A stretch of DNA of 64,000 bases, taken from contig JAHLKT010000001.1 in the NCBI GenBank assembly GCA_020444545.1, positions 558,001-622,000 of the forward strand, written 5' to 3'. The position numbers and the translations under genes were made by a program. The notes beneath the pieces are model-generated. The model saw only the letters and a program-made list of their open reading frames with translations. It searched no databases and had not been told where the DNA came from. Shown one piece after another: positions 24,568 to 25,705 of the stretch. The stretch comes from Desulfarculaceae bacterium. Lineage in GTDB: Bacteria; Desulfobacterota; Desulfarculia; Desulfarculales; Desulfarculaceae. Position 1 is the stretch's first letter; each line of letters begins with the position of its first letter.

Positions 24568-24927
24568 ATGGAAGATCTGGCCCCCCAAATCTACCGCCAA
24601 CGCCTGCTGGTGGAAGGCCATTACGGCCGCGAGCTGGACGAGGCGGCGGTTAGCCACTTTTTGCCCGAGCTGGCCCACGCTTGCGGGCTCACCCCCTATG
24701 GCCGGACCCTGGTGCACTCGCCCGGCGGCCAGGGCAAAGAGATCAACCAGGGCTTCGACGCCTTCCTGCCCCTGGTGGACAGCGGCATCGCGGCCTATTT
24801 CTGGACCGGGCCCCGCTTCTTCAGCATAGTCATCTACTCCTGCGCGCCTTTCCCCGAGGCCTCGGCCCTGGAGTTCTGCGCCGCAGCCCTGAACGCCACC
24901 AGCCCCCTGGCCAGTAAGTCTTTCTAG
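24568..24927 (+). CDS. SpeD-like (AdoMet decarboxylase fold) protein with altered processing site
   Basis: 119-residue protein resembling a class 1b AdoMetDC monomer. The segment LVDSGIAAYFWTGPRFFSIVIYSC aligns with the family's LAESHxxxHTWPExxyxxVDxxTC block: Ser72 sits where the pyruvoyl-forming Ser is, with Asp71 for Glu, and Cys92 matches the catalytic Cys, but the two His residues and the TWPE motif are gone. An unusual HSPGGQGKEINQGFDAF motif (50-66) precedes it. Start by ATG 24568; the upstream extension looks non-coding. Ten bp upstream of an MBL gene. Known SpeD paralogs include neofunctionalised decarboxylases; activity here is open. Confidence 0.6.
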   Translation: MEDLAPQIYRQRLLVEGHYGRELDEAAVSHFLPELAHACGLTPYGRTLVHSPGGQGKEINQGFDAFLPLVDSGIAAYFWTGPRFFSIVIYSCAPFPEASALEFCAAALNATSPLASKSF

Positions 24928-24937
24928 GAGAGACGTC

Positions 24938-25705
24938 ATGTCCTCTTGGGAAATATACGCGCTACGCTACGCCGGACCGGTGGAGACCAGCCGGGCCATG
25001 GTGCTCTGGAACCAGGACTACGACCAGACCCACCGCCGGGCCTACTATTTCTGGTGCCTCCTGGGCCCGGGCGGGCCGGTGGTGGTGGACGCGGGCACCC
25101 ACCCGGACACCGCGCGGGAGCGGGGCCTGCCCGATTATGAGAGCCCGGACGCGGTGTTGGCCCGCCTGGGAGTGCAAGCCGACCAGGTGCCCCACCTGGT
25201 GCTCACCCATCTGCACTGGGACCACGCCGGGGGCGCGGGCCTGTTCCCCGCGGCCCAGGTGCACCTGCACCGCGAGGAGTGGCGTTTCTGGAGCGAGGAC
25301 CCGGTCTCGCGGCGGGCGCCCTTGCAGTGGCTCCGGGACGAGCCCAGCTTCCGGGCCCTGGAGCAGGCCCAGAGCGAGGGCCGTTTGGTCTTGCACCAGG
25401 ACGGCGACACCCTGCTGCCCGGCCTGGGGCTTATCGCCGCGCCGGGGCACACCCCGGGGCTCATGGCCCTGACCGCCGAGACCGCCAAAGGCCGCGCGAT
25501 CCTGGGCAGTGACTGCGGCCACACCTGGGAGAACTACGCCCGGGATTGGCCCAGCTCCTTTATCTGCGACATGCCCGCCTGGCTGCGCTCCATGGACAAG
25601 CTGCGCGCCCTGGCCGGCAGCGAGCGCCTGCTCATCCCTGGCCACGACCTGGCCATGAGCACCGACTTCCCGGAAAAGGTTCCCGGGGTCACCCGCCTGG
25701 CCTGA
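24938..25705 (+). CDS. MBL-fold hydrolase, N-acyl-homoserine-lactonase-like
   Basis: 255 residues. Metal motif THLHWDHAGG gives His91, His93, Asp95 and His96; APGHTPGLMAL, ILGSDCGHTW and LIPGHD supply the remaining ligands. The layout is that of AiiA-type lactonases, but such folds cover many esters and lactones. AGGAGA precedes the ATG. It follows the SpeD-like gene after 10 bp, so the two are likely one operon. Confidence 0.8.
   Translation: MSSWEIYALRYAGPVETSRAMVLWNQDYDQTHRRAYYFWCLLGPGGPVVVDAGTHPDTARERGLPDYESPDAVLARLGVQADQVPHLVLTHLHWDHAGGAGLFPAAQVHLHREEWRFWSEDPVSRRAPLQWLRDEPSFRALEQAQSEGRLVLHQDGDTLLPGLGLIAAPGHTPGLMALTAETAKGRAILGSDCGHTWENYARDWPSSFICDMPAWLRSMDKLRALAGSERLLIPGHDLAMSTDFPEKVPGVTRLA

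Follow-up and report, generated by a model that had tools for sequence, protein, structure and literature searches.

A SpeD-like protein family lacking the processing histidines, probably with a new function

Can a protein with the fold of the pyruvoyl enzyme SpeD still cleave and activate itself when both histidines used in these reactions have been replaced, and which chemistry would it then serve? This question is raised by a 119-aa protein encoded in a window of 64,000 nucleotides (the whole stretch of DNA that was analysed: assembly GCA_020444545.1, contig JAHLKT010000001.1, positions 558,001 to 622,000) from a Desulfarculaceae bacterium. A preliminary description of the locus, made from the sequence, proposed a SpeD fold with a rewritten processing site, retention of the serine and of Cys92, a novel HSPGGQGKE motif and a pathway shared with the AiiA-like MBL gene that follows. 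The features concerned are given below, with positions counted from the first letter of the window.

24568..24927, + strand: gene of the SpeD-fold 'DSG' family, 119 aa
24715..24753, + strand: HSPGGQGKEINQG, spanning residues 50-62, the form that the family motif [FH]SPxGxGKEENQG takes here (from alignment column counts)
24757..24759, + strand: Asp64 codon, aligned with T. maritima Ser55 (Asp in 81/83 members, Glu in 2/83)
24778..24786, + strand: Asp71-Ser72-Gly73, predicted cleavage site and pyruvoyl Ser (Glu62-Ser63-His64 in T. maritima)
24796..24798, + strand: Tyr77 codon, aligned with the processing/catalytic His68 (Tyr in 81/83)
24841..24843, + strand: Cys92 codon, aligned with the catalytic Cys83 (Cys in 83/83)
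24938..25705, + strand: MBL-fold hydrolase, AiiA/AttM-like, 255 aa, with HLHWDH; judged to be no functional partner

The ORF at 24568-24927 (+) starts with MEDLAPQIYRQRLLVEGHY, continues with HSPGGQGKEINQGFDAFLPLVDSGIAAYFWTGPRFFSIVIYSCAPF and ends in SKSF; VDSGIAAYFWTGPRF, C92 and HSPGGQGKE are all present in its product. The sole Pfam match of this protein is AdoMet_dc (E 1.9e-4), whose 22.2 bits fall just short of the curated cut-off of 25 bits, a value that most relatives elsewhere pass. A scan of the protein against NCBIfam gave no match, TIGR03330 included, and three relatives scored 15-19 bits with TIGR03330 against an equivalog cut-off of 75.65 bits. Matches to TAL effector repeats in phmmer were rejected as an artefact, because each adds up many repeat matches within residues 11-76 that are individually below threshold.

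The AlphaFold2 model of the protein (pLDDT 95.9, pTM 0.89) superimposes on T. maritima AdoMetDC (1tmi, 1tlu) with Z 14.5-14.6 and 2.0 Å over 105 residues in VIA-align, and Foldseek returns the same enzyme with E 7e-6. Next, at Z about 9, come class 2 AdoMetDCs and spermine synthase with its AdoMetDC-like domain, and unrelated folds reach Z about 6 in the same comparison. Judging from this model, the protein has the class 1b AdoMetDC (SpeD) fold. Structure prediction, proposed as a check in the preliminary description, thus bears out the fold assignment with a strong similarity to AdoMetDC. Pfam, profile-profile and model comparisons all place the relation to SpeD above chance.

We mapped the residues by profile alignment to 1tlu, in which the Ser-to-Cys register is ungapped and spans 20 residues in both proteins. 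The S55-S63-C83 register of T. maritima SpeD corresponds to D64-S72-C92 without gaps, Glu62 to Asp71 and Trp70 to Trp79. The DSG protein therefore shares with class 1b SpeD (1tlu/1tmi; TIGR03330; PF02675) the fold, the acid-Ser processing pair, the Ser-Cys spacing, the Cys83 equivalent and the Trp of HTW. It differs by the changes His64 to Gly73, His68 to Tyr77 and Ser55 to Asp64, and by the loss of the Pro-Glu that follows this Trp. The loss of both processing/catalytic His residues noticed at the outset is thus confirmed. His68 is kept in the canonical SpeD alignment and in 17 divergent homologues from the phylum sample. Pro71-Glu72 is invariant in the canonical alignment; it is Thr-Gly in the window's protein and variable across the DSG family. 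The C-terminal Arg-Gly tail of SpeD is also missing, the N-terminal AP-x-I-x-RQR is additional, TIGR03330 scores lie far under the cut-off, and there is no regular spermidine synthase partner.

The rewritten site belongs to a family. A profile scan of genome contigs, based on an 8-row alignment, yielded 106 confirmed DSG loci; we examined 83 members, namely 80 of these loci and three plasmid copies. All 83 have S72, G73, W79, F84 and C92, and all carry an acid, Asp or Glu, at position 71, so that the retention of Ser and Cys at the T. maritima spacing holds for every member. Conservation over residues 71-119 is free of any influence of the search patterns, while these patterns account in part for the invariance of R10, R12, E16, N60, G62, D64, A65 and F66. 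Features fixed family-wide are the AP-x-I-x-RQR N-terminus, the GxGKEENQG loop and a C-terminal Phe (81/83). HSPGGQGKE is indeed present, but it is the local form of [FH]SPxGxGKEENQG and not unique to this protein. The only members without Tyr77 are those of Solitalea agri (L066) and S. longa (L071), which carry a tyrosine at position 75 (DSGIYIAVW). Positions 75 and 77 lie two residues apart on one strand of the model (72-79), as if a tyrosine hydroxyl were required there, and Tyr75 is possibly a relocated catalytic Tyr.

Bacterial hosts of the family comprise Burkholderiales and other Proteobacteria, Cyanobacteria, Bacteroidota, Actinomycetota, Zixibacteria, Gemmatimonadota, Elusimicrobia and one Chlamydiae MAG; further hosts belong to several CPR phyla and, among DPANN, to Micrarchaeota, Woesearchaeota and Pacearchaeota. 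Plasmids of Halioglobus, Nostoc and Acaryochloris encode proteins that are 45-49% identical. In the window's phylum, 395 genomes were searched, and the strong matches, of 149-155 bits, came only from the window's genus; among 60 relatives searched, four other members of that genus carry the gene and one more keeps a decayed remnant of it. Weaker matches in the phylum (42-52 bits) were rejected as DSG members, the 17 that were read being His-containing SpeD types; one further weaker match is the decayed remnant of the genus. The phage and viral contigs searched gave no DSG match, and a phage or viral origin of the gene was rejected for this reason; the E. coli search gave no match either. Literature searches, with subscription papers outside their scope, found no account of the family. 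Altogether, the DSG family is a real and well-bounded SpeD subfamily that is apparently undescribed, and the finding is more general than the preliminary description saw.

Other divergent SpeD-like proteins were encountered along the way. A Peregrinibacteria ORF of 293 aa (L146, G089:C18:22400-23083) holds two tandem divergent SpeD-like domains, the first with EGGHMAVHT for ESH. Two Micrarchaeota genomes (L144 and L148 in G079 and G104) encode, co-resident with DSG, a separate divergent SpeD-fold lineage with TTSHCSLH. In two Cyanobacteria (L140 and L141 in G072 and G095), genes of short SpeD-like proteins that carry ESHVALH[VI]W are found at most 2 kb from a Spermine_synth match.

In a tree of 106 rows, the 83 DSG members form a single clade (SH-aLRT 100) whose stem measures 8.9 changes per column. 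The placement of this stem is unsure because the alignment has 119 columns and the branches are long; the unity of the family is not in doubt. The window's genus falls among proteobacterial sequences, and the Desulfarculaceae copy was probably acquired horizontally. Within the genus dN/dS is 0.15-0.32; DSG genes are thus under purifying selection and maintained where present. The gene is nevertheless dispensable, since one species (G006) has only a decayed copy and a sister species (G002) has none, like the rest of the phylum sample. The G006 remnant (L008:1501-1626; G006:C1:3972091-3972216) sits at the syntenic place upstream of an intact MBL gene; its N-terminal part is gone and the catalytic Cys has become Arg.

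Does the neighbouring hydrolase reveal the function? The MBL ORF begins 10 bp past the stop codon of the SpeD-like gene. Its product scores 67.7 bits with Lactamase_B (cut-off 22.7), its HLHWDH satisfies HxHxDH, and its best solved relatives are AHL lactonases. It resembles AiiA/AttM-type N-acyl homoserine lactonases in the MBL fold and in HxHxDH, but reaches only 61-64 bits with the AiiA/AttM/AidB NCBIfam equivalogs, far under their cut-offs of 360-390, and membership in that group is unsupported. A shared pathway of the SpeD-like protein and the hydrolase is suggested by the common strand and 10-bp spacing of their genes, but this arrangement is found in two species only, the window's own and G001. 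In the genus, yebC-rlmE lie on one strand and the SpeD-like gene, where present a sufC-sufB-like pair, the MBL gene and groES-groEL on the other. The suf-like pair separates the SpeD-like gene (in G006, its remnant) from the MBL gene in G004, G005, G006 and G007; the 10-bp spacing exists because this pair is absent from the window's genome and from G001. The MBL gene is found between rlmE/yebC and groES in the genus with or without the SpeD-like gene: it occupies the same place in G002, where no SpeD-like gene is present, and it is intact in G006 where the SpeD-like gene has decayed. An MBL gene without a SpeD-like gene is also found in G010, G014 and G020. Outside the genus, no MBL neighbour recurs among DSG loci. 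The pair, whose conservation had been suggested as a check, is therefore not conserved in relatives, and synteny largely refutes the idea of a common pathway, which we now hold to be most improbable. The MBL gene is the older resident, and the two are neighbours by history and not evidently by function.

Nor do the neighbourhoods elsewhere name a partner. Clustering of the neighbour ORFs of the 83 loci showed recurrence only among close relatives and for common superfamilies, and among 59 operon-like neighbours scanned with Pfam no family was present in more than three. In Nostoc (L010, L055, L058) the DSG gene is followed by a conserved run encoding a GFA protein, an alpha/beta hydrolase, an NTF2-like protein and a DJ-1/PfpI protein; in Nostoc sp. 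NIES-3756 the gene and this run are on a plasmid.

SpeD has given rise to arginine and ornithine decarboxylases that spread horizontally, CPR and DPANN included (Li et al. 2023, PMC10407285), and DSG could be a further lineage of the SpeDA/SpeDC kind serving polyamine synthesis. Indeed, SpeDC-type profiles are its nearest relatives (hhalign E 3e-11, against 3e-4 for SpeD), Cys-Lys-x-[FY]-Asp is common to DSG and the pyruvoyl L-ornithine decarboxylase SpeDC, and both SpeDC and SpeDA are, like DSG, patchy, horizontally spread and present in CPR and DPANN (PMC10407285). The pyruvoyl L-arginine decarboxylase SpeDA likewise combines a SpeD fold and a changed substrate with loss of the Pro after Trp. 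However, SpeDC keeps His68 and the diagnostic Gln/Thr/Phe/Tyr, where the DSG family has Tyr for the His and [VIL]/Asp/[VIF]/Ser. The window's protein has Leu67, Asp71, Phe78 and Ser86 at these positions (mapped by inference from the text of PMC10407285 and from SpeDC-type sequences) plus Tyr77 for His68, so that it has only one of the four diagnostic residues and the conserved His is absent too. SpeDA is otherwise SpeD-like, keeping S63, H68 and C83 where DSG has Tyr for His68, and its hosts have agmatinase or AguA/AguB.

The host itself also argues against such a role. The window's genome carries PvlArgDC divergently adjacent to agmatinase (G000:C8:75898-77455), an OKR-type decarboxylase and, on a separate contig, a canonical speD followed by speE (SpeD scoring 133 bits with TIGR03330). 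From this gene content, the host is predicted to make spermidine from arginine independently of the DSG gene, and the idea that the latter fills a gap in polyamine synthesis there was discarded. The PvlArgDC-agmatinase pair is present in 8/8 genus members searched. Because this route is complete and independent, the DSG protein is probably not a source of agmatine or putrescine. Among 50 other hosts, many of them incomplete MAGs, 30 have at most one PF02675 match, the DSG member itself, and 11, with the same reservation on completeness, have a Spermine_synth match above 100 bits. These counts weakly disfavour arginine or ornithine decarboxylation, polyamine genes are not recurrent beside DSG loci, and we regard this origin of the family as unlikely.

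The same counts disfavour AdoMet decarboxylation and a role in regulating SpeD. The latter deserves mention since the trypanosomatid prozyme (ADL) is an AdoMetDC-fold homologue with an altered processing site that activates AdoMetDC without autoprocessing (PMC3686867), and a canonical SpeD is there to be regulated in the window's genome. Prozymes, however, have lost the Glu-Ser pair and act on a co-resident AdoMetDC, whereas the DSG family keeps acid and Ser and, in the genomes searched, many of them incomplete, often stands without a co-resident SpeD. A catalytically dead partner of SpeD is consequently a very unlikely identity for the DSG protein.

The reading that we favour, to which we give about half of our belief, is that DSG is a fourth SpeD subfamily whose members are still self-processing pyruvoyl decarboxylases acting on a substrate other than AdoMet. 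What goes beyond a SpeD fold with conserved Ser and Cys, that is, cleavage and substrate, we infer from the residues and the hosts. In T. maritima SpeD, Glu62 may act as a base, and the S55A variant is still activated (Webb et al., PMC3975893). By analogy, Asp71 would act as the base and the Ser72 hydroxyl would attack the Asp71 carbonyl, with cleavage between Asp71 and Ser72; Asp64 would stand in for Ser55, and Tyr77 would replace His68 when the ester is broken. Cleavage would leave a pyruvoyl group on Ser72, and Cys92 would donate the proton during decarboxylation. AdoMet is probably not the substrate, since the DSG protein lacks two features of AdoMetDC, the Pro-Glu after Trp and the Arg-Gly tail at the C-terminus. 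Most likely, the substrate is a small amino acid or amine precursor that many unrelated hosts can use without a dedicated partner gene.

Would such a protein process without histidine? S63, H68 and C83 are essential for processing, involved in catalysis and conserved across SpeD, SpeDA and SpeDC (Li et al., PMC10407285). Human His243 acts at ester cleavage, and H243A gave an ester structure (cited in PMC3975893). As His68 is conserved in all these characterised enzymes and the human variant stalls as an ester, a His-less enzyme may not process at all. The neighbourhoods, which give no metabolic hint, also count against the proposal. We nevertheless give processing with Tyr in place of His about an even chance, because acid, Ser and Cys are kept, Asp64 and Tyr77 are available, and other pyruvoyl families do without His. 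In PvlArgDC, pyruvoyl processing proceeds without an equivalent histidine. The same is true of PanD (PMC3975893).

Ranked next is an intact chain, in which the SpeD fold would do without self-processing and serve another kind of enzyme, such as a hydrolase or an isomerase, or a small-molecule binding protein, using Ser72, Cys92, Tyr77 and the invariant Arg10, Arg12 and Glu16 directly. The joint replacement of both His and of the Ser55 equivalent on one long stem is consistent with this, as are the newly fixed features of the N-terminus, the loop and the C-terminal Phe, and non-catalytic AdoMetDC-fold domains do exist (the prozyme and the N-terminal domain of spermine synthase). Yet giving up pyruvoyl chemistry would free Ser72, Cys92 and the acid to vanish, and Ser and Cys are absolute at the T. 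maritima spacing with the acid before Ser kept. We therefore view an intact-chain function as a tentative possibility, and rather an improbable one.

The window's protein probably has a new function. Pyruvoyl enzymes form a small group whose self-processing is a textbook example; about a hundred natural proteins that keep Ser and Cys without the His and the auxiliary Ser make the roles of these residues in ester cleavage directly testable. The annotation of DSG genes as 'S-adenosylmethionine decarboxylase', as on the Acaryochloris plasmid, is probably wrong. On a reading that we hold to be about as likely as not, the family would form a fourth functional class of the SpeD fold, with Tyr for His, Asp for the auxiliary Ser and a substrate outside polyamine synthesis, encoded by one self-sufficient gene that has spread through Bacteria, CPR and DPANN. 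The DSG family points to a yet undescribed reaction that moves between domains as a single gene.
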